Assembly (NCBI GenBank): GCA_002716765.1
Contig: PBBY01000016.1
Location: forward strand, 1 to 47,321
Length of the DNA stretch: 47,321 nt
Direction of reading: 5' to 3'
Origin: Candidatus Magasanikiibacteriota bacterium
Lineage (GTDB): Bacteria; Patescibacteriota; Patescibacteriia; Magasanikbacterales; UBA922
The stretch's first letter is position 1. Each line of letters starts with the position of its first letter. The translations under genes and the position numbers were made by a program. Below the pieces are notes generated by a model, which ran no database searches, was not told the origin of the DNA, and worked only from the letters and a program-made list of their open reading frames with translations. Below, piece after piece: positions 214 through 10,758 of the stretch.

Positions 214-3066
214 ATGAGCAGTAGGCGTTTTGAACAATCAATGACACCAAAAGAAAGTGTTAATATAAACCTTAAAGATTATGGTGTTAGCGACCCGCAA
301 GAGTGGAGTGAGGCTACTTATAGTGAAATTCAAAATTATAGTGAAATTCAAAAATTTAATAAGTTACTTACTTACATTGAGGGTGGGGAAAAAGTATCAC
401 AAATAGAAAAAATCCAACAATTTCAAAAAATAGAAGACAGTATTGAACGCCTAGAACTTTTACGAACAATGTCATTTAGAGATGCAATTGAAAGTCTCCT
501 AAAACATTCTGAGTCTGGAGGCGCCTATAAATACTTATCAAGTCGGTTAGATTTTTATCAAAAACTATTCCAAGGTAAGGCCACAAAAAGATATACTGAG
601 GAAGAGTACGATTACGATACAGGAGAATATGTTAAGGTTGTTAAAGAAAAATTAATAGACGCAAGCGATGTAACACCAGAAACTATTAGGTTAGGTGTTC
701 TAAGAGATCTTATGTTTGCTTCAATGATTGGCACGCCCGAGCTTGCCATTTTTAAGATTGCAGAAAAAAGATTGAAACGAGGTGGGGTAAGTAGTGGGCA
801 TATGCCTCAAATAAGTGGTTATCATTCAGGTATTAATGAGCATAGCATCGGTCATGCGTATCCATTTCTAAAGGATCTTTATCAAAAAGCACGAAAAAAT
901 GTTGAGAGCGGATCAAAGGGGAAAGAAAATGATGAAGAAATGATTAGTGAAGAAACATTGGAGCATAGAGCTGTTATTCGGGCTGCTAACTGGCTAGAAG
1001 AAGCAATGGATTATAACGATCCATTCCGCACTCAATACTCACCTTATGCGTCAGATATAGAAGAAGCTGTAGCCTGGGCTCGGTTAGGTGATGAAAAAGT
1101 TAAAGCACAACTAAGGGGAATGAGGCAGAAAATACAAGAAACAAACCTGCACAATATTGGTAGGTTTATAGGTAAATCAGGTTTCAATAAATATGATCCC
1201 GAAAGAAGAAAATTATTTTGGCAAACAAAGAATTTTGAGCAACTAATTGCTGGAGATGAGAGAGTGTTTGAGCAGCCTCATTTGCAGGAATATGCGTATA
1301 AATTGCAGGATTTAGAGAAGGACTTGGAAGATAAGAAAATCACTCAAGAAGAATTTGATACTAAAAAGCAAGAATTGGATCAATGGTTTGAGGAGAACAA
1401 GATATCATTTTTAGAACAAGAAAATTCAAGAGAAATTAGTAAACAAGAGAAATGGAGAGCTAGTGAAACAGCTCGACTTCAGGCCAAATTAGTAAAACGG
1501 TTTGGTGAGATTGAAGCATTGGATTTGCCTGAAGAAGAAAAAGAATTGCAGCTAGCAAGTTTACAATCAGAATTTGATAGAGATGTGGCTGCTGTGACAC
1601 AAGATTATTCTGAGCAAGTTGCGTATTTTAAATCAAGAACAGCAGAACAATTATCAAGTGACTTAAAAGATCGACAAGCGTTAGTGGAAACAAGGTATGA
1701 GAAGAGAAAGAGCTTAGCTCAAAAAGCTCTTGATTTGCATTTTGCCACAAATCATATTTCAAGCGATGACGACTATCAAAGTAAACCATTAGCTGGAATT
1801 GTTGATTGGATAAATTTTGTGCCTTTCGGAACCCTAAAAAGATCTCACCGCCTAATGAGGGATGGAGCGAGTGAAGAGCGGTTGGTAGAATACGCCCTAA
1901 CTGAAATTATTTGTGGTGCGCGAGGTGTTTCAAAAGAAGATATGCAGTATGTTCATGGATTGGTCGAGAAAGTAAAAAGTGGAGACTGGGAGGCAAGGCA
2001 AAAATTAGAGTCTGTAATGAAAGTCGGTAATATACTTTCTCGGTTCAAATATGAGGTGTCTTTACAAGAAGTCGAGGAATTAGCAGAAAAGAGATTTTAT
2101 GGTATGACTGATGCCTTGCGTGAGTACACATTGGATGAGGTTAAGGCTTTTATGGCTAAGGATCTTGATTTGAAATCAGTAGTGAAAGTTAAAAAAACAG
2201 GTGAGAAATTTGGGCACACGTTAGATACTGACACCGTTGCTGAAATGGCAGCGCATAATATAGAAGGTCTTGAAGATTCATTTAGGTCTTTTGACTTAGA
2301 AGGTACTCGGACATTGTTAAAAGAAGATGTTAATTTAACAGTTGCTGTTGCGGTTTTGAATAATACTACCCAGTTTGGTTATGAGCTCTCAATTACTCAA
2401 ATAGCTAAAATAGCAAAAAATGTACAAGATATTGAAGATTTCAAAAGTGCATTACGCAGTTTGCCTCTTGAAGAAGTTGAACGGTTGTTTACTGCTGGAG
2501 TGCCATTTTCAGAGTTTAATAAAGTGCAGGCTTCTTTATCTAAAAAGCGATATGCCTCAGATTTTGATTCAACCCTCACTTTATCTGAAAAGCTTTCCAG
2601 AAATCACGAATATGACACTTTAGAAAGAGCTTTTAAGGTGTTTTCTCTGAAAGAAGTTAAAGAGATTCTTGCTCAAAGAGCTTCATTGTCTGGTGTGTTA
2701 GAAGTTAGTGAGGTACTAAAAGGAAAGAATATTGATACTAATTTGCAAGAGATTATTAGATTTGAAAAACATGCTGGTCATGGTTGGGGTAAAGGAAGAA
2801 ATGTTAGTAGTTCTATTGATAAATTTGGCATTGATAATGTAAACAATATGATAAGTCAAGGAGTTCAACTACCCAATGCTCTAAATGTTAAAAGACAAAT
2901 AGAGAGACAAGAGTTAAATCAATTTGACAATATCGATATCATAATCGCCATAGCAAAGCACGGCGGTGATGTAGAAGTAGCCTTAAAGACTCTTGAAGCA
3001 GGATTCAGTATCGAAGAAATTACCAGATTCCCATATTTAATTTCACCATTAGTTTCCAAACAATAA
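214..3066 (+). CDS. Large cytoplasmic helical-repeat protein, first gene of AAA+/vWA operon
   Basis: I do not recognise the family (950 aa). There is no signal peptide or membrane segment. Residues about 355-515 are a Glu/Lys/Gln-rich predicted coiled coil. From about residue 630 to the end I see five or six degenerate units of roughly 57 residues, starting near 631, 686, 743, 803, 866 and 922. Each unit has a pattern like LREYTLDEVK followed by a second helix, suggesting an alpha-solenoid. The last 20 residues (R938-F-P-Y-L942 and flanks) match the end of the fifth gene's protein. The start ATG at 214 has no nearby Shine-Dalgarno sequence; AAGG at 176-179 and 182-185 is too far upstream. An 18-bp tandem duplication (319-354) gives YSEIQN-YSEIQK near the N-terminus. 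By context it is a partner or substrate-recognition subunit of the ATPase/vWA pair; that is inference. Confidence 0.85.
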   Translation: MSSRRFEQSMTPKESVNINLKDYGVSDPQEWSEATYSEIQNYSEIQKFNKLLTYIEGGEKVSQIEKIQQFQKIEDSIERLELLRTMSFRDAIESLLKHSESGGAYKYLSSRLDFYQKLFQGKATKRYTEEEYDYDTGEYVKVVKEKLIDASDVTPETIRLGVLRDLMFASMIGTPELAIFKIAEKRLKRGGVSSGHMPQISGYHSGINEHSIGHAYPFLKDLYQKARKNVESGSKGKENDEEMISEETLEHRAVIRAANWLEEAMDYNDPFRTQYSPYASDIEEAVAWARLGDEKVKAQLRGMRQKIQETNLHNIGRFIGKSGFNKYDPERRKLFWQTKNFEQLIAGDERVFEQPHLQEYAYKLQDLEKDLEDKKITQEEFDTKKQELDQWFEENKISFLEQENSREISKQEKWRASETARLQAKLVKRFGEIEALDLPEEEKELQLASLQSEFDRDVAAVTQDYSEQVAYFKSRTAEQLSSDLKDRQALVETRYEKRKSLAQKALDLHFATNHISSDDDYQSKPLAGIVDWINFVPFGTLKRSHRLMRDGASEERLVEYALTEIICGARGVSKEDMQYVHGLVEKVKSGDWEARQKLESVMKVGNILSRFKYEVSLQEVEELAEKRFYGMTDALREYTLDEVKAFMAKDLDLKSVVKVKKTGEKFGHTLDTDTVAEMAAHNIEGLEDSFRSFDLEGTRTLLKEDVNLTVAVAVLNNTTQFGYELSITQIAKIAKNVQDIEDFKSALRSLPLEEVERLFTAGVPFSEFNKVQASLSKKRYASDFDSTLTLSEKLSRNHEYDTLERAFKVFSLKEVKEILAQRASLSGVLEVSEVLKGKNIDTNLQEIIRFEKHAGHGWGKGRNVSSSIDKFGIDNVNNMISQGVQLPNALNVKRQIERQELNQFDNIDIIIAIAKHGGDVEVALKTLEAGFSIEEITRFPYLISPLVSKQ

Positions 3067-3088
3067 AAATTTTACTAACTAGAAATAT

Positions 3089-3445
3089 ATGCCTAAAAAA
3101 TTGCAAACTTTCCCTAGTGCATCTTTGCCTCTTGATGCAATCGTGGAAATCACAGTACCAAAGCCGTTAGGGGTGATAGCTGGAGTTTTTATACAAGAAA
3201 GAGCTCGTAAACTAGACCTTTATAATGAGAAAATCGAATGCTTTGCTGAGGGACAAGATAAAGATGGAAAGAAAATAGCTGTTAATACTATTGGAAGATG
3301 GTTATTTGGGGTGCCTGGTTATGGAGGACACATTCGAGTGGTTGGGGTTGAAGATAAAGTGTTGCTATATTATCCAAAAAAATCATTAAAAGTTGTTCAC
3401 GAGCTTGTTAATTCAATAAAAGACAGCGTTGAAGCTGCCAAGTAA
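3089..3445 (+). CDS. Small protein of unknown function in AAA+/vWA operon
   Basis: A 118-aa soluble protein of unrecognised family. It starts 22 bp after gene 1 and ends 9 bp before the ATPase gene, so it is almost certainly co-transcribed. A mixed alpha/beta fold looks likely: the middle holds a Gly-rich stretch (VPGYGG) followed by alternating hydrophobic strands, and the C-terminus is a predicted helix. There are no Cys residues suggesting a metal site beyond a single Cys, no signal peptide and no membrane segment. Being encoded directly upstream of the ATPase it could be an adaptor, but nothing in the sequence proves that. Confidence 0.75.
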   Translation: MPKKLQTFPSASLPLDAIVEITVPKPLGVIAGVFIQERARKLDLYNEKIECFAEGQDKDGKKIAVNTIGRWLFGVPGYGGHIRVVGVEDKVLLYYPKKSLKVVHELVNSIKDSVEAAK

Positions 3446-3454
3446 TTTAAATAT

Positions 3455-5404
3455 ATGAGAGAAAAATTTACACCAGCACCCCAAGAAGCAGCCTCAGCAT
3501 CAACACGAGAGGTATCAATTACACAAGCAGACATTCAAGAAAAGCGTGAACGAGTAACCCAAACACTTGAAAAAGCAAGGTTATTGCCAGCTGATTGGCA
3601 AAGTGGAGGTGGAAAGAGTCGAGATGAAATGATTGCGGCTTTAGAACAGTCATTGGAAGAGTTGGATAGCATGGAAGCGTCAGTTCAACAAGCAACAGAA
3701 GAGGCAGCTGCTCCAAAAGAAAGGCGAGTTAAAGCGAAGCGAAAACCGCTTCGATCACCGCAGGCTATTGAAGAAGCTGGGCGGGCTTTTCAAGCTGATG
3801 AAGGGAACTACATAACTGTGGGAGAAATTCATATTCCTGTGTGTGAAATGTCTCCAGATGAATCTCAGTGGGAGGCTGTTCCAGGTAAGACATATGTTTC
3901 AGGTGGTAAAAAGTTTTCTGAAGTTAGATTTGTAAAAGACACCTATGGTTTAACATATACAGCAAAACCTGGTGAACTGATGACTTTTTCAGAAAAACAT
4001 CGTGGAAAAAGATTAGAAGCAGTGGATACTGTTTTAGAAGGTAGACAAGAGTTAAAAGCCTTCAAAGAAGCTGTTCGTAGATTAGGAGAACTTACCAGAG
4101 ATTATGAGGAATTAAATCCTGATGATCTTGATTATGATAAAAAAGCAAGTCAATTATCGGCTCAAATAGAAGGAGTGGTTGATCCTGATAAGTTGACGGA
4201 AATGTTAGGGCTAGAAGAGATGAAAATTGATGATCCTGAAGATTTCGCAGAAAGATGTGCAGAAATACTTCGCACTCAACAGTTTTTGCGAGAGCTAGAC
4301 GGCAACATGAATGAATTTATCCCATCACATGATCCTCATTTCAAACTAACTCCTTATTTTGAAAGGAAGTTTGCCTGGTTTGCAACTTTAGTTAATCGAC
4401 AGCTTGGACTTGGAAACAATGCTTACTTAGAAGAATTGGTTAAGAACAAGCAGGCTCCTGAATGGGAAAGACTTGCTGGAAAAGGAATGACAGTGATGGT
4501 TGGTCCTCGCGGTACTGGAAAAAACAAAGTTACGGATTTTTATTGTAGTGAAACTAACCGACCTTTGTTTCGCTATGCTTGTTCACCAGATAAGGAAGAA
4601 AGAGACCTTACTTATGATGTTGAATTATCTGATGGTGAAGTTGTAAGAATACCAACAAGAATTTTAACAGCTATTACAACACCTAATGCTGTATTGGAAT
4701 TAGATGAGTTAAACTTGCTTCGTCCAAATGTCGCAAAGTTTTTCAACTCACTATTTGATGGTGATCGAACAGTGTACTTAAATGACCAACAGATCAAAGC
4801 AGCTCCTGGAGTTGTCTTTATTGGTCTTATGAATCCGGCTGAATATGATGGGGTTGAAGATTTGCCGGAAACAATTGATGACCGTTCAAATATCATGACT
4901 ATGGGGTATCCTCCATTCAGAGAAACCGACCCAACTACAACTCGTGAGAGATTTACGCACGATGAGGCTCTTATTCTTAAAGAACATATTCATCCGCTTA
5001 GTAATCTTTCTGACGAAGAATTTAGAAAGGTATGGGATTATGTTATTAATGGTACGGCGGCACAAGTTTCTTTAGATCCTGAGACTGTAAAAGTGATTAA
5101 GGATTTAAAGAATTTGGTTGCTATTTGTGACAGAACTCGTCAAGTTGTTGGAGCGTATAAAACACGAACCGGAGACACAAGAATGGAAAGAGATATTTCT
5201 TTGCGTGGATCAATTGAAGCAGCCAGGTTTTATTCGGAAAATCATTTGTGGAAAGAAGATTTATCAAAGATGCCGGATTGGAAAGCTGGGTGGAATGCAG
5301 CTCAGTATGCTGTTGCTATGACTTATCTACCTCATACAGATACTTATCGTCGTGGTAAAACAGATCGTGATGCCATGATGCTTATTTTGGCTGAAGGAAT
5401 TTAA
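3455..5404 (+). CDS. MoxR/CobS-like AAA+ ATPase
   Basis: This 649-aa protein has an AAA+ domain from about residue 335 to 600. Walker A is G350-PRGTG-K356, Walker B is LELDE (D417, E418), a sensor-1-like Asn is N460 (LMNP), and a likely arginine finger is R477. Its DDRSNI segment and its order next to a vWA gene fit the MoxR/CobS/NorQ branch. The residue after the Walker A lysine is Asn rather than the usual Thr/Ser, so magnesium coordination may be altered. The N-terminal 330 residues are not part of the ATPase: residues 1-120 are charged and probably disordered or coiled, then comes an unrecognised domain. It lies 9 bp from both neighbours. Known family members remodel or insert metals into partner proteins together with a vWA protein; the substrate here is unknown. 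Confidence 0.88.
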   Translation: MREKFTPAPQEAASASTREVSITQADIQEKRERVTQTLEKARLLPADWQSGGGKSRDEMIAALEQSLEELDSMEASVQQATEEAAAPKERRVKAKRKPLRSPQAIEEAGRAFQADEGNYITVGEIHIPVCEMSPDESQWEAVPGKTYVSGGKKFSEVRFVKDTYGLTYTAKPGELMTFSEKHRGKRLEAVDTVLEGRQELKAFKEAVRRLGELTRDYEELNPDDLDYDKKASQLSAQIEGVVDPDKLTEMLGLEEMKIDDPEDFAERCAEILRTQQFLRELDGNMNEFIPSHDPHFKLTPYFERKFAWFATLVNRQLGLGNNAYLEELVKNKQAPEWERLAGKGMTVMVGPRGTGKNKVTDFYCSETNRPLFRYACSPDKEERDLTYDVELSDGEVVRIPTRILTAITTPNAVLELDELNLLRPNVAKFFNSLFDGDRTVYLNDQQIKAAPGVVFIGLMNPAEYDGVEDLPETIDDRSNIMTMGYPPFRETDPTTTRERFTHDEALILKEHIHPLSNLSDEEFRKVWDYVINGTAAQVSLDPETVKVIKDLKNLVAICDRTRQVVGAYKTRTGDTRMERDISLRGSIEAARFYSENHLWKEDLSKMPDWKAGWNAAQYAVAMTYLPHTDTYRRGKTDRDAMMLILAEGI

Positions 5405-5413
5405 TTTAGTTTT

Positions 5414-8400
5414 ATGCCAGGGGAACCAAAAGGGTCACAATTTATAAAAGAAACTACGACACCTTCAGTAGAGGTTTCTCAAGTTGAAAGGACTTTGAAT
5501 GAATTAGTCCCTATTTTAGCGCATGGTTTGGTGAGAAGGATTGAACAAAAAGGTTTTGCTGGAAAAATCAGAGTTAGCTCTATGGCTGGTGAAGATTGGG
5601 GGGGTGCTAAAAGCAAGGATAATACAACTGATATTCCTAACGTGATTATTTATCCAAAACGTGTTTTGTCTGGTGATAAACGAGTAGTTAATGCACAGCT
5701 TAGACATGAAATAGGTAATCTTAATTATCCGATTGATTCTGAGCTTAATACTCTTCGCGGCTGGTGTGCACAGCAGGGAATTGCTCCTGAATTATTAACT
5801 TCTTTAGTTGAGGCAACTCAAGAAGCATCGGTGAATTATTTAGAAATGCGTAATTCACATAGTGATGAACCAGAAGAAAACTTTCGGGCATTGTATGAAC
5901 AGGAGATAAATACACAACAAATTGCAGCTAGTATAGGCAGTTCATCACCATACAAACAAGCAGTTGATATTACATTGCTCTATTCTTTAGCTCATGTTGG
6001 TTTAATTCCACAGGCGCAGGTAGATCAGGCATTGGGTTCTGCTCATCCTAAAGTGAGGGAATTATTTGATAAGCAAATTCAATCAGTATTAGGTCAAATA
6101 GTTAAGATGTCGGTTGCTAATAAAAAAATGCAATTGATAAGAGAATATGTTTGGCCAAAGTTTTCTGGTTTAGTTGCTCTATCACCTGTTAGCCCGCAAG
6201 AATTAGCTAAAAGACAACAAGTTGCTGAGCCAGCAGCTCTTTCACCTGCTCAAAAACAACTTCAGGAAATGCGGCAAGAAATAGCTAGAATGAAGCAAGA
6301 AATGGCAAAGTCTGGAAAAGAACAGCCGCCCAAACCTTCCAATCCAGAACAAAAGTCTAAAATGTCAGAAAAACCCAGTCAAAAAGAAATGACTCCTGGG
6401 GGTAAGCGTGAGCAAGACGAAGTAAAAAAGGCGTTGGAGGATAGCTTAGCTGAAAGGCTGCAAGATTTAAAAGAGCAGATGGAACAGTTGCAAAAAGGTG
6501 CGGAAGAACAAAAGCCAAAGCCACAATCATTGCAAGAGATGGCAGAGCAAGCTAAAGAGATGCAAGCTCAAGCCCAGGAAGCAACTGAACAGGCAGAAAA
6601 AGAAGAGCTGGAAAAATTGCAGGAGTTAATGGAAGAGTTAAAAGACTTGCAAGACGTGGCTGAACAATTATCCGAAGAGGCTCCAGAAGAGGTTGAGGTT
6701 GAAGACGAAGAGCCGATGACATATAAAATTAGTGAATATGGAATTGTTGAGTCAGAATTAAACCCAGAACAAGCAGCATTGCTGGAAAATATACGGACAT
6801 TTACCAAAGAAACTTCAAAAGTATATCGCAAGGTAATGCGATTGCTATTTGCTGCTTATCAAAAAAGAAATTCAAAATTTACCCCCAAACTTATAAGTAG
6901 TCTTAAAGAAAAAGGTCATGATTTGCCACAATTTTCAATTTATAGTCCCGAAGCCGGTGGAGAATTTTTAAGTGCTGAGGAAGAAATGGGAGTCACTGGC
7001 GTGGATGAAAACAATTTTTTACTTAATTTTAATTTACCTAAACCATTTGGTAAGTTTTGGTATAAAGGCGGTGAAGGAAGCCGTGCACAACCTGTTAAAG
7101 AAGGAGAAATTGCTTGGGGTGAATTTTATCGGCGTAGCATGCCGGTTATTTGGAGTGCAGTTGATAGAGCCGTTGGAGCTGGGCTGTATTTGGATCGAAT
7201 AAATGCGTTTGGGCAACATGACTACAAAAAATATTATTATCTTTGGGAGGCAATGAAACTTCAAATGCCTGAATTTGAGGGTGAAGATAGTGAGCAAGAA
7301 GGAGAACAAGCCGAAGGTGAAGAATCAGAAGAAGGACGAGCTGATGACTCTGGTGGCGCTCAAGAAGGTTCCGGTGAGCAAGGTGAAGGTGCGACAGAGG
7401 GCGGTGAGGGCGCAGGAGAAGGCGGAGAGCCTGGCGCTGGTGATGCAGGAGAGGGTGAGCCTGGCCAAGGACATCCTGGCGGCGAAGCTGGTGAAGCACA
7501 ACCTCATGATCAATTTCAAGAAGGGGGGCAATCACAGGATCGTGATGTAGAGAGTTTATTTGGTAAACCTGCTGATGAGTTGTTGCGTCAACTTCGTGAA
7601 TCTCAGGACGCTTTAAGTAGTAAATTTGCTACTCAGGATGAAAGTGGAAATGTTGTCGAAAGGGATCTTTCAGAACAAATGGGAGATGCTTTAAGGCATC
7701 AAATGGCTGAAACAGATCAAGTGCAAGCTAGACAATTAGATCAATTAGAAGACATAAAGAGGCAACAAGAGAAAAAGCTGGAGTCAATGTATAGAGAAAT
7801 GTCAGGACTTGATGGAGAAGCTTTGCGTGTCTATGTCGAATACATGGAGGATAAAAAAGATTTCACCCGTGACTTAACAGACTTTTTCATAGAGAAGTTC
7901 AAATTAGATAAGGATTATGTTTATGAACGGGATCAAAGAAGAGGTGCTAAGCTTCAGAGAGGATACACCAGAAAAATCCTTGGAACTAAAGGGGGTAAAC
8001 CGGTAATTGATCCAAGATCATTTGAAAGGAAAAGACCACCAGAAAAGCCACAGTTTGCCTGGACTTTGATTATTGATAATTCTGCTTCTTGTGGTGGAGA
8101 TATAATTGAAGAAGAAAAGAAGTTAGCTGTAGCATTGGTCGAAGTTGCAAAAAAATTAGATATTCCGCTTGAAATAGTAACTTTTGGCGGCCCCCAACAG
8201 TATACTTTCCTAAAAGGTTTTGAACAGGATGTTGCTGGAGAGGATTTGCAGAAAATGGTTTTTCTTAATGCAAACCAAGGTACTCCGGACGTTGTAACTT
8301 TAGATGCAGCTTGTGCGAGTATGGAAAGGTTTACTGATAAATTTCAAAGATCATACAATTTTGTTTATTTCATGACTGATGGACAGTCAGGATCAGGATC

Positions 8401-8584
8401 AATTCAAGAGGTATTGAAAAAATATAAACGGGATATGGTGGTTACTGGAATTGGATTAGCTGGAGCTGCTAGCTCTATCGGTGAAACCTGGGGTAGAAAT
8501 GCGGTGTCTGTTCCTGATGTATCAAAATTGTCAGATTTTTTTATTAGAAAAATTGAAGATCAGATAGATCAGACATTTGACTAA
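5414..8584 (+). CDS. CobT-like von Willebrand A domain protein with coiled-coil and acidic linker
   Basis: This 1056-aa protein is the partner of the upstream ATPase. Domain order: an N-terminal region with HEIGN at 98-102, resembling a zincin HExxH that lost its second His; a Gln/Glu/Lys coiled coil at about 277-435; a conserved-looking middle domain; a Gly/Glu/Asp-rich low-complexity linker at about 620-695; and a C-terminal vWA domain from about 880. The metal-ion-dependent adhesion site is complete: D888-x-S890-x-S892, T957 and D989. This order (metallopeptidase-like head, acidic linker, C-terminal vWA) recalls CobT and NorD/CbbO proteins that bind a MoxR-type ATPase. I infer that the vWA binds a target carboxylate through a divalent metal while the ATPase does the work. 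There is no export signal. Confidence 0.88.
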   Translation: MPGEPKGSQFIKETTTPSVEVSQVERTLNELVPILAHGLVRRIEQKGFAGKIRVSSMAGEDWGGAKSKDNTTDIPNVIIYPKRVLSGDKRVVNAQLRHEIGNLNYPIDSELNTLRGWCAQQGIAPELLTSLVEATQEASVNYLEMRNSHSDEPEENFRALYEQEINTQQIAASIGSSSPYKQAVDITLLYSLAHVGLIPQAQVDQALGSAHPKVRELFDKQIQSVLGQIVKMSVANKKMQLIREYVWPKFSGLVALSPVSPQELAKRQQVAEPAALSPAQKQLQEMRQEIARMKQEMAKSGKEQPPKPSNPEQKSKMSEKPSQKEMTPGGKREQDEVKKALEDSLAERLQDLKEQMEQLQKGAEEQKPKPQSLQEMAEQAKEMQAQAQEATEQAEKEELEKLQELMEELKDLQDVAEQLSEEAPEEVEVEDEEPMTYKISEYGIVESELNPEQAALLENIRTFTKETSKVYRKVMRLLFAAYQKRNSKFTPKLISSLKEKGHDLPQFSIYSPEAGGEFLSAEEEMGVTGVDENNFLLNFNLPKPFGKFWYKGGEGSRAQPVKEGEIAWGEFYRRSMPVIWSAVDRAVGAGLYLDRINAFGQHDYKKYYYLWEAMKLQMPEFEGEDSEQEGEQAEGEESEEGRADDSGGAQEGSGEQGEGATEGGEGAGEGGEPGAGDAGEGEPGQGHPGGEAGEAQPHDQFQEGGQSQDRDVESLFGKPADELLRQLRESQDALSSKFATQDESGNVVERDLSEQMGDALRHQMAETDQVQARQLDQLEDIKRQQEKKLESMYREMSGLDGEALRVYVEYMEDKKDFTRDLTDFFIEKFKLDKDYVYERDQRRGAKLQRGYTRKILGTKGGKPVIDPRSFERKRPPEKPQFAWTLIIDNSASCGGDIIEEEKKLAVALVEVAKKLDIPLEIVTFGGPQQYTFLKGFEQDVAGEDLQKMVFLNANQGTPDVVTLDAACASMERFTDKFQRSYNFVYFMTDGQSGSGSIQEVLKKYKRDMVVTGIGLAGAASSIGETWGRNAVSVPDVSKLSDFFIRKIEDQIDQTFD

Positions 8585-8594
8585 AATAAAAATT

Positions 8595-10148
8595 ATGAAA
8601 GAAAATATAAATTTACAATTTAAGGAACATGAAGGTCAAGAAGTAGTTGACCCTAAACTACAACTAGAAAAATTAGGCATTCCAGAGGGAGTTTTTCCTG
8701 AGGCATTGTTTCAAGACAAAGAGATGTTGGAATTTGTATTGGAGCAGCTACCTTCCATTAAATCAAGTATATTTATGGGGGCGCTAGCTGGCGGAGGCGG
8801 AGAAGTGGCTAACGAAGAGCGAGGTGTACAGAAAAAAACAGGAGCATCAAAAATTTTATTTAAAGCAATGGATAGGGCAATATATTTGAAAAAACCTGAG
8901 TTAGCTCGTAGGGTGGCAGATTTAGCAGGTTTTAATTTAGAAGATGTGCATTTTGATTTATGGAACAAATTTATGATGACGCGTATTCATTCTTTGGGTT
9001 GGGAATATTTTTATGATGTTTGTAAATCATTCGATATCAAAGAAGATAAAATTAATAAGACAATAATACGGAGTATTGAACGAGATTTGCAGTATGGAAA
9101 AAAGGAGGTAATAAAAAAGTTTGAAATATATTTAGAGCATGGAGGGTCAAGAGATCAACTTTCAGCTGATTTTCAGGATAACGCAATAAGAGGACTGTCT
9201 GTTTTATTTACTGCGGGCAACCATGAAGAGGTAGAACGTTGGGGGGTAATTTTTCAATTATCTCCTGAACAAAAAGAGATGGCTCGCAAACAAGCAATCA
9301 ATGGACTTATTAAGAAAAGAAAATACGATAAAGCAATAATACTTGGGGAAGAAAATCTTAAAGAATACTTAGTTCAACAATTTTCCAATCATTATTTGTC
9401 ACTATTAGTATCGTTATCTTGGACTGAAATAGAAAAATTGGAGAAGGATCATTCAGAATATATCAGTGAAGTGCCAGTAGAGGAACGTAAAAAAGCTTTA
9501 TCTAGCGGCCTTGGGTCGATGATGAAAGGGCGTGGTGCTGAAAGATGGTTGTCGATAGAGGAGAATCAGGCACGCGTGGCTTCGTTGCCGGATGATGTTG
9601 TTTTAGGTGGATCTGTTCAAAATGAAGCATTACAACTGTATGAAAAAATGCTAGTGGATCCAGAGAGCAAAGTAGCTATACCTTTTATTGAGTTATTCCG
9701 ATTATCTCAGGATGTTAGAGAGGGACACCTTAAAACTGTGGTAGATCGTATTTTTTCTCATCCAACCTTAAATCGTGGTGATTTGGATAAATTAGTGGTA
9801 ATAGTGGAAAGATATCCATTTCTACGAGATCTCATCGAAAACGAAGACCAGCAAGAAAAGATATTAGCTGCAATTCAAAATAGTCTTTCTTCGCGTATTC
9901 AATGTGAAAAATATATGGGTTTACTTAAAAAAGAGTTGCAAGATAAATTAGTATTTAGTAAATTTGAACAGGCTATACTCAGTGATGATCAAAGGGAATT
10001 TGAACGATTAGGGAAGGAATTCAAATTATTTGAAGGAATAGACTTAAGACGGAAGTGGGGTGAATTAAAAGCAAGTTTTAATGCAGGTTTCTCAGTTTAC
10101 GAACTTTCTAGATATCCATTTTTAGTTTCATCATTAATTAATCAATAA
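8595..10148 (+). CDS. Helical protein sharing C-terminal tail with first operon gene
   Basis: The family is not recognised. I chose the ATG at 8595 (517 aa), 10 bp after the vWA stop, rather than an in-frame TTG at 8577 that overlaps the vWA gene; other spacings in this operon are similar. The protein is predominantly alpha-helical, without membrane segments. Its last residues, R506-Y-P-F-L510 inside AGFSVYELSRYPFLVSSL, closely match the end of the 950-aa protein (AGFSIEEITRFPYLISPL). A second RYPFL occurs at R406. An early Gly/Ala-rich turn (about residues 55-65) separates two N-terminal helices. The shared tail makes a common docking partner, such as the ATPase or the vWA protein, the simplest hypothesis. 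Confidence 0.85.
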   Translation: MKENINLQFKEHEGQEVVDPKLQLEKLGIPEGVFPEALFQDKEMLEFVLEQLPSIKSSIFMGALAGGGGEVANEERGVQKKTGASKILFKAMDRAIYLKKPELARRVADLAGFNLEDVHFDLWNKFMMTRIHSLGWEYFYDVCKSFDIKEDKINKTIIRSIERDLQYGKKEVIKKFEIYLEHGGSRDQLSADFQDNAIRGLSVLFTAGNHEEVERWGVIFQLSPEQKEMARKQAINGLIKKRKYDKAIILGEENLKEYLVQQFSNHYLSLLVSLSWTEIEKLEKDHSEYISEVPVEERKKALSSGLGSMMKGRGAERWLSIEENQARVASLPDDVVLGGSVQNEALQLYEKMLVDPESKVAIPFIELFRLSQDVREGHLKTVVDRIFSHPTLNRGDLDKLVVIVERYPFLRDLIENEDQQEKILAAIQNSLSSRIQCEKYMGLLKKELQDKLVFSKFEQAILSDDQREFERLGKEFKLFEGIDLRRKWGELKASFNAGFSVYELSRYPFLVSSLINQ

Positions 10149-10152
10149 TAAT

Positions 10153-10626
10153 ATGCTTAAAAATTTCGAATCAAACCTTGTGAGAATAGATAAATTACTC
10201 AGTGAGGGTGAGGAATCCCCAGACTTCGAGGCTTTATTTTCTGGTATCGATAGTATGTGCGATGAGATTGATCAAGGGGTTGAATCCAGAAAAGACGAAG
10301 TAGAAACCTGGTCTTTGGAAAGAAAAAGAAAAGAAGCTGTTGATTCACAAGATACTTTTGTTTTGAATTTACTTTCAATGGATGAGGAATTCACTATTCG
10401 CACACTTTCTGCTTGTAATCCAAATACTCCTAATACATCCCTTAGACGACTGGTTGAAGGAGCTAATGATTATGTGAGGATGGTTATTGCTAATAATCCT
10501 CGTGTATCTCCAGATGTACTTAGTCGCATTGCTGAGTTGAGTGGAGAGCAAGAGGTCTTAGATGCGGTAAAAAATAACCCTAATGTTTCAAAGGTTACAA
10601 AATTCAGAATTGAAAATAAGTTATGA
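10153..10626 (+). CDS. Leucine-rich-variant (LRV) repeat protein, last gene of AAA+/vWA operon
   Basis: A 157-aa protein starting 4 bp after the previous stop. Residues about 80-156 hold three units of 26-27 residues with the LRV-type pattern: VRMVIANNPRVSPDVLSRIA is the clearest, and NPN/NPR/NPN turns sit at 89, 115 and 142. LRV repeats form short right-handed helical solenoids used for protein binding. The Cys-rich N-terminal Fe-S motif of some LRV proteins is absent; the N-terminal 75 residues are charged helices. It closes the operon: the terminator at 10733-10758 follows after about 105 bp. A scaffold or target-binding role is inference. Confidence 0.8.
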   Translation: MLKNFESNLVRIDKLLSEGEESPDFEALFSGIDSMCDEIDQGVESRKDEVETWSLERKRKEAVDSQDTFVLNLLSMDEEFTIRTLSACNPNTPNTSLRRLVEGANDYVRMVIANNPRVSPDVLSRIAELSGEQEVLDAVKNNPNVSKVTKFRIENKL

Positions 10627-10732: not shown

Positions 10733-10758
10733 GAGATGTAATTTTTCATCTCTTTTTT
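10733..10758 (+). terminator. Rho-independent terminator of AAA+/vWA operon
   Basis: GAGATG (10733-10738) pairs with CATCTC (10747-10752) over an 8-nt loop, followed by six T residues. Confidence 0.7.

Follow-up and report, generated by a model that had tools for sequence, protein, structure and literature searches.

MoxR-vWA machines, in which a MoxR ATPase is paired with a vWA protein, have been described as chaperones and, in multicellular bacteria, as predicted ternary conflict systems. In NorQ-NorD, the C-terminus of NorD and a vWA finger hold the NorQ ring and are themselves twisted by ATP turnover (PMC13036017). The ternary conflict systems have been sorted into VMAP, iSTAND, FtsH and beta-propeller classes (Kaur et al. 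2020, PMC7159879). Their hallmark is the presence of variable parts within a conserved operon, and Patescibacteria were left out of the multicellularity test in the same study (PMC7159879). Our literature search returned no paper that meaningfully joined MoxR with Patescibacteria or Saccharibacteria.

Here, we examined a 47,321 nucleotide stretch from a Candidatus Magasanikiibacteriota bacterium (GenBank PBBY01000016.1, assembly GCA_002716765.1), referred to below as the window. This is contig C16 of an 886 kb genome that is 89.7% complete, and near its start is a six-gene operon, here named A to F, that encodes a MoxR/NorQ-like ATPase (C) and a vWA protein (D). With a little less than even confidence, we read the A-B-C-D-F set as a MoxR-vWA remodelling machine that works in the cytosol, has spread horizontally and would have its targets chosen by exchangeable alpha-solenoid arms; its likeliest role is in biological conflict. 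The features of the window copy are listed here, with homologous loci in other genomes numbered L008 to L014.

55-83, + strand: promoter-like TTGCCA-N17-TATAAT, 5' of gene A (predicted; consensus scan, 11/12, best in region)
214-3066, + strand: gene A, 950 aa (open reading frame, ORF; homologues in L008-L012)
2995-3063, + strand: tail of A, EAGFSIEEITRFPYLISPLVSKQ, proposed docking tag (alignment A3, genome-wide search, tail DNA comparison)
3089-3445, + strand: gene B, 118 aa, core subunit (ORF; homologues)
3455-5404, + strand: gene C, 649 aa, MoxR/NorQ-like AAA+ ATPase (AAA_5, NorQ match, alignment A1)
4502-4525, + strand: variant Walker A GPRGTGKN, with Asn for Ser/Thr, invariant in 8/8 homologues
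4697-4708, + strand: Walker B ELDE, invariant in the alignment
5414-8584, + strand: gene D, 1056 aa (ORF; VWA; alignments A4 and A5)
5462-6193, + strand: N-domain of D (AlphaFold2 predicted local distance difference test score, pLDDT, 86.9; no significant fold match)
8075-8089, + strand: metal ion-dependent adhesion site (MIDAS) DxSxS, as DNSAS (D888-S892), intact (alignment A4)
8595-10148, + strand: gene E, 517 aa, accessory helical protein with tail (ORF)
10080-10145, + strand: tail of E, NAGFSVYELSRYPFLVSSLINQ (54% over 24 residues to the L012 A tail)
10153-10626, + strand: gene F, 157 aa, LRV-domain core subunit (ORF; LRV_2)
10733-10752, + strand: terminator-like hairpin and T-run, 3' of F (predicted; pattern scan)

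Conservation and transfer of the operon

The six ORFs lie on the same strand, with intergenic gaps of 22, 9, 9, 10 and 4 bp, in full agreement with an earlier note made from the letters of this DNA. The one promoter and one terminator proposed in that note were also found, both as consensus matches only, and promoter-like sites overall were not above shuffles. As the window starts only 213 bp 5' of gene A, the upstream side of this copy is unseen; A is the first gene in L010, L011 and L012.

When approximately 85,000 species genomes were scanned with short exact peptide patterns, a search that may miss more divergent copies, seven other loci were returned, in which C is 53-77% identical to that of the window. 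All are in Patescibacteria-like metagenome-assembled genomes (MAGs), from Zambryskibacteria, Parcubacteria, Moraniibacteriota and Saccharibacteria, plus two that group with these by RpoB; for all carriers except the window genome, kinship rests on names and RpoB. L009-L012 show the full order A-B-C-D-F, and L008, L013 and L014, which are cut by contig ends, agree with it. A gene order shared with seven further MAGs is much more than chance would give, and the check that the earlier note had asked for, whether homologues keep a common neighbourhood, thus came out in its favour. Its fixed six-gene unit did not survive the same comparison. E was seen only in the window copy, and because nothing in L008-L014 corresponds to it beyond its tail, we conclude that E is an accessory arm outside the conserved core.

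The carriers are isolated among their relatives. A profile of C matched only the known carrier in each sample: 1 of 380 genomes in the phylum, 1 of 246 in the family to which the L013 genome belongs and, among relatives of the L011 and L010 genomes, 1 of 118 and 1 of 113, respectively. Few proteins are normally as conserved as RpoB. Comparison of L010 and L011, both on contigs longer than 100 kb, revealed that they share 80% identity in C and 53% in RpoB; for L009 and L010 the values are 95% and 54%, though the L009 contig is 10.8 kb and misbinning is possible for this pair. As the identity of C exceeds that of RpoB, the simplest reading of these sequences is that the cluster has been transferred horizontally between distant hosts. 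No RpoB turned up in the incomplete genome of the window itself, so this comparison concerns the other carriers. The ratio of nonsynonymous to synonymous substitution rates (Ka/Ks) between L009 and L010 was approximately 0.03 for C and 0.05 for residues 1-600 of D and for F. With ratios this low, the core is functional and under strong purifying selection.

Strong purifying selection also suits the main rival explanation, a dedicated chaperone or quality-control machine that would remodel complexes of the cell itself, much as NorQ-NorD or RavA-ViaA do, the solenoids serving as scaffolds to which a native client binds. All characterised MoxR-vWA pairs work in this way (PMC13036017, PMC3893208). 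A housekeeping client, however, predicts common, vertically inherited genes, whereas the carriers are solitary and the core moves between lineages, and no client gene travels with the operon. We consider this explanation possible, though on the unlikely side.

The patchy distribution, horizontal movement and modular binding arms could also belong to a mobile or niche-adaptive module, for example one for episymbiont-host interaction with arms that act on host-derived proteins inside the cell; the carriers belong to lineages that are thought to be episymbionts. Here, though, neither transmembrane-strength segments nor secretion genes were found in the operon, and the readable flanks show no link to surface genes. 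Such a module strikes us as improbable. The highest 19-residue hydropathy in any subunit is 1.73, which also leaves the envelope role entertained in the earlier note without support. That note had further suggested looking for defence or envelope genes beside homologous loci; no defence genes were found there, and the readable flanks look housekeeping.

Repeat arrays, the common tail and protein F

The copies differ most in the repeat arrays. The N-terminal half of A (approximately residues 1-560) is comparable in all six A homologues that have this region, and is followed by a variable helical-repeat region (approximately residues 560-925) and a conserved C-terminal tail, all with approximate borders. 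A common 23-residue C-terminal tail (EAGFTIEEITRFPFLISPLVTKK-like) stands behind helical repeat arrays that are not homologous. It is carried by A, by E of the window, by A2 of L011, by A of L013 and by both copies on G431:C12, a contig of the L013 genome; of the arms described here, only that of L014 does not end in it. The tail of E is 42-54% identical to those of A, and both are at the extreme C-terminus. The two G431:C12 tails, which were absent from the profile, scored 1e-12 and 3.5e-9, and no other protein scored convincingly when the eight genomes were searched. The same residues are encoded by differing codons, so conservation of the tail is at the protein level.

Five kinds of array were seen. 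The first is in A of the window, L008, L009, L011 and L012; 'KFSGI' repeats are in A of L010 and F of L014, 'FHIPEETIQSPEVQSAAKERMI' repeats in A2 of L011 and 'LFPDDIKTLDQAIDAWREIQKAG' repeats in L013 and L030, and the array of E in the window is the fifth kind. The repeats of L011 A2 (79-87% matching) and L013 are still detectable as DNA tandem repeats. A second fragment of the cluster in the L013 genome, L030 (positions 1-2668, on G431:C12), contains the end of an array with its tail, a nearly identical B and another tail-bearing repeat protein, which suggests duplication of an arm-B unit, with contigs broken by the repeats. A diversity-generating retroelement was rejected, as no reverse transcriptase was found in the scanned ORFs of the window; its own genome was not searched for one.

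The exchange of arrays is seen between L009 and L010, whose DNA agrees at 88.8% of positions over the stretch that runs from the A tail (L009 position 3262) to the middle of D (7619). Within A, the N-terminal halves share 35-73% identity, the repeat regions 9-28%, and the tails are nearly identical; the vWA ends of D are about 47-77% identical. L010 therefore holds a second array type in the same slot. It counts against the chaperone explanation that the arrays, which would have to bind the client, are conserved less than any other part of the system.

L014 is arranged differently. It has no A before B, and no tail was found in the 186 bp 5' of B or anywhere in its genome. Its F is 874 aa long, with the LRV domain first and a solenoid after it. 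In a blastp comparison with a shuffle control, this solenoid matched the L010 A array at 51 bits, a score reached by 0/1000 shuffles (best 25.8), and the other arms at 23.1 bits or less; phmmer missed the match. Because the same repeat type comes either with a tail or by fusion to F, this one locus suggests that the tail docks at F or close to it.

These observations lead us to the following arrangement. C would form an AAA+ ring, and D would sit on it via its vWA domain and conserved C-terminus, by analogy with NorD on NorQ. B and F would be constant core subunits, and A, E and further copies would be arms, each binding a target through its variable helical-repeat array and plugged into the core by the 23-residue tail, most probably at or near F. 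Once a target is bound, ATP-dependent remodelling or release would follow through D. The earlier note had proposed the helical-repeat, LRV and small proteins together as recognition or scaffold subunits; for the helical-repeat proteins a recognition role fits the data well. Of the points above, the shared tail, the interchange of arrays and the horizontal transfer were absent from that note, as was the abnormal Walker A of C described below.

The core subunits and their genomic setting

C matched the Pfam family AAA_5 (1.3e-15) and, across residues 339-509, NorQ (3.3e-11). Its nearest solved structures are NorQ and CbbQ (3e-11 to 1e-5), with similarity confined to the AAA+ core at approximately 25% identity, and a 340 aa N-terminal extension is of no recognised type. 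The AAA+ domain can be aligned to those of NorQ and CbbQ, including the arginine-finger region, and ELDE and DDRSN are invariant. C thus has a MoxR/NorQ-type AAA+ domain, and the ATPase with Walker A and B motifs of the earlier note holds for the domain and for Walker B. The Walker A is not canonical: across the copies it reads GPRG[TAV]GKN in place of GxxxxGK[ST], with Asn in 8/8 and the remainder of the P-loop intact. The Ser/Thr of P-loop NTPases normally binds the magnesium ion. With Asn in its place, C may be a slow enzyme, may hold nucleotide in another way or may act as a switch, and the motif invites a direct test of how this ATPase works.

A lone C-related protein of 240-333 aa, here called pseudo-MoxR, was found in relatives from the window's family. 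It gave a reciprocal profile match (1.2e-16), has lost Walker A and Walker B, and is present in four family genomes besides C itself. At L005:1351-2352(+), L006:1375-2097(-) and L007:1333-2109(+) it is always directly 5' of radC-like and antitoxin-like genes. Relaxed matches to C in relatives were these lone proteins, and a wide C family was rejected. No C homologue was found in viral contigs by single-protein or profile search. An origin from phages or plasmids was also rejected, as plasmids gave only remote CbbQ/NorQ matches and phage sequences one CobS-like match.

In D, a conserved helical N-domain is joined by charged coiled-coil and G/E-rich linkers to a C-terminal vWA domain (VWA 6e-4, slightly under the Pfam gathering cut-off). 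As the earlier note had it, this is a 1056 aa vWA protein with an intact MIDAS, and with an adjacent vWA gene bearing DxSxS, C and D form a MoxR-vWA pair. In alignment A4 the motif is DNSxS in the window, L009 (DNSGS), L011 and L014 and DNTGS in L010, and the C-terminus of D is conserved. The N-domain includes an invariant R-H-E-x-G-N (H98, E99, G101, N102) in a helix, which is HEIGN in the window copy (5705-5719), and invariant Glu residues in a later helix. These residues raise the idea of a degenerate zincin that has lost its second His; nothing significant was found for the N-domain in the PDB, and with a weak Foldseek match to HtpX (probability 0.23) the zincin is a guess. The vWA domain of L010 (14918-16024), with DNTGS, is without the GTPD stretch usual in other copies, and the A array of L010 also differs; that the two changes are functionally linked is only suggestive, from a single case. 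D of L012 is broken into three frames, probably by an assembly or sequencing fault.

CobT has a charged linker and a C-terminal vWA domain, as in D. Together with the position of NorQ and CbbQ as the closest solved relatives of C, this would fit a metal-insertion machine that is a variant of the CobS-CobT, NorQ-NorD or CbbQ-CbbO kind and serves a metalloenzyme yet to be discovered. Against it, no metalloenzyme, cobalamin or RuBisCO gene, nor any other genetic link to a metalloenzyme or cofactor pathway, was found among the annotated window genes, in agreement with the earlier note, which had seen no metal enzyme or metabolic target nearby. Moreover, A, B and F are without counterpart in such machines, and the match is limited to the AAA+ core. 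We regard a metal-insertion machine as very improbable.

B has eight homologues that are 38-61% identical to it and is predicted to be a compact alpha/beta protein (AlphaFold2 pLDDT 91.6). A fold search returned no significant PDB match, and viral models likewise gave nothing. An orphan B-like domain (3e-14) starts a protein of approximately 290 aa with a C-terminal extension (L048:13100-13560(-) region, G395:C6:21169-21540(-)), in a genome with no C, D or F match by the A1 and A5 profiles. F contains an LRV_2 domain (1.1e-6) and has homologues in L009-L012, plus the solenoid-fused one in L014. The four unrecognised partners of the earlier note are thus reduced to A, B and E, which matched no family in Pfam, NCBIfam or PADLOC. 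A gas-vesicle MoxR (GvpN) operon was rejected: the GvpG match of A (0.07) falls in a coiled coil, and gas-vesicle genes are absent. The 3' neighbours of the operon encode RimK-like, MFS and UvrC-like proteins, followed by cell-wall, cell-shape and tRNA-synthetase genes, and we conclude that the setting is an ordinary chromosomal one.

Comparison with described MoxR-vWA systems

Several observations weigh against a remodelling machine with a conflict role. There are eight copies in total, all MAG-derived and several truncated, and one of the pairs that argue for transfer may be misbinned. No defence genes are beside the operon in the window, no effector (nuclease, protease, pore or NADase) was recognised in any subunit, and PADLOC gave no match beyond coiled coil (ZorA similarity in the D linker, 5e-5, and others weaker). 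ATP turnover might be reduced or lost through the Asn of Walker A, and the tail may serve as a structural solenoid cap rather than for docking. The chaperone explanation gains from the same lack of effector domains, and LRV and solenoid proteins are common scaffolds. The conflict reading draws on the operon being conserved, exchanged and sporadic with a binding array as its variable part, the signature set out in PMC7159879, and a conflict role, unproven as it is, is on balance favoured over the alternatives; it would consist in sensing or disabling invader proteins. More tentatively, the locus may be an undescribed immune-like machine of Patescibacteria, in which a constant MoxR-vWA-B-F core takes solenoid arms by a universal C-terminal plug and the arms diversify by tandem-repeat turnover and recombination. 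The cluster is found in Patescibacteria with ultra-small genomes, where 10 kb accessory systems are costly, and a constant core with plug-in repeat arms is a simple, testable idea for re-aiming one remodelling engine at new targets.

RavA-ViaA likewise has a two-gene core of a MoxR ATPase with a vWA cofactor. The locus described here differs in having no LdcI-like partner and other extra subunits, a comparison that no alignment underlies. NorQ-NorD and CbbQ-CbbO are closer, as C is nearest to NorQ and CbbQ, and D carries a vWA domain with MIDAS at its C-terminal end and closes in a conserved C-terminus that is compatible with a NorD-like mode of binding. They differ from the present cluster in the 340 aa extension and GKN Walker A of C, the other N-domain of D, the three further conserved subunits (A, B and F) and the absence of a metal enzyme.

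Pfam includes VMAP models, and no VMAP-C domain was matched in the six proteins at E values up to 1. The MoxR N-terminal motifs WxhapG and PsWRxa were found by regular expression in 0/8 C proteins, and no iSTAND NTPase, pair of FtsH AAA+ domains or beta-propeller was found in A, B, D, E or F. A MoxR/VMAP ternary system was ruled out by the missing third components and the missing MoxR motifs. Unlike the ternary conflict systems, the cluster has no detected VMAP-C, iSTAND, second AAA+ (FtsH), beta-propeller or EAD domain, and the earlier note's expectation that it would not match a described ternary system was borne out. The enigmatic beta-propeller class, like the window cluster, is also without conventional effectors. 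With the ternary conflict systems as a whole the cluster shares its MoxR and vWA core, its additional proteins and a highly variable component within a conserved operon.

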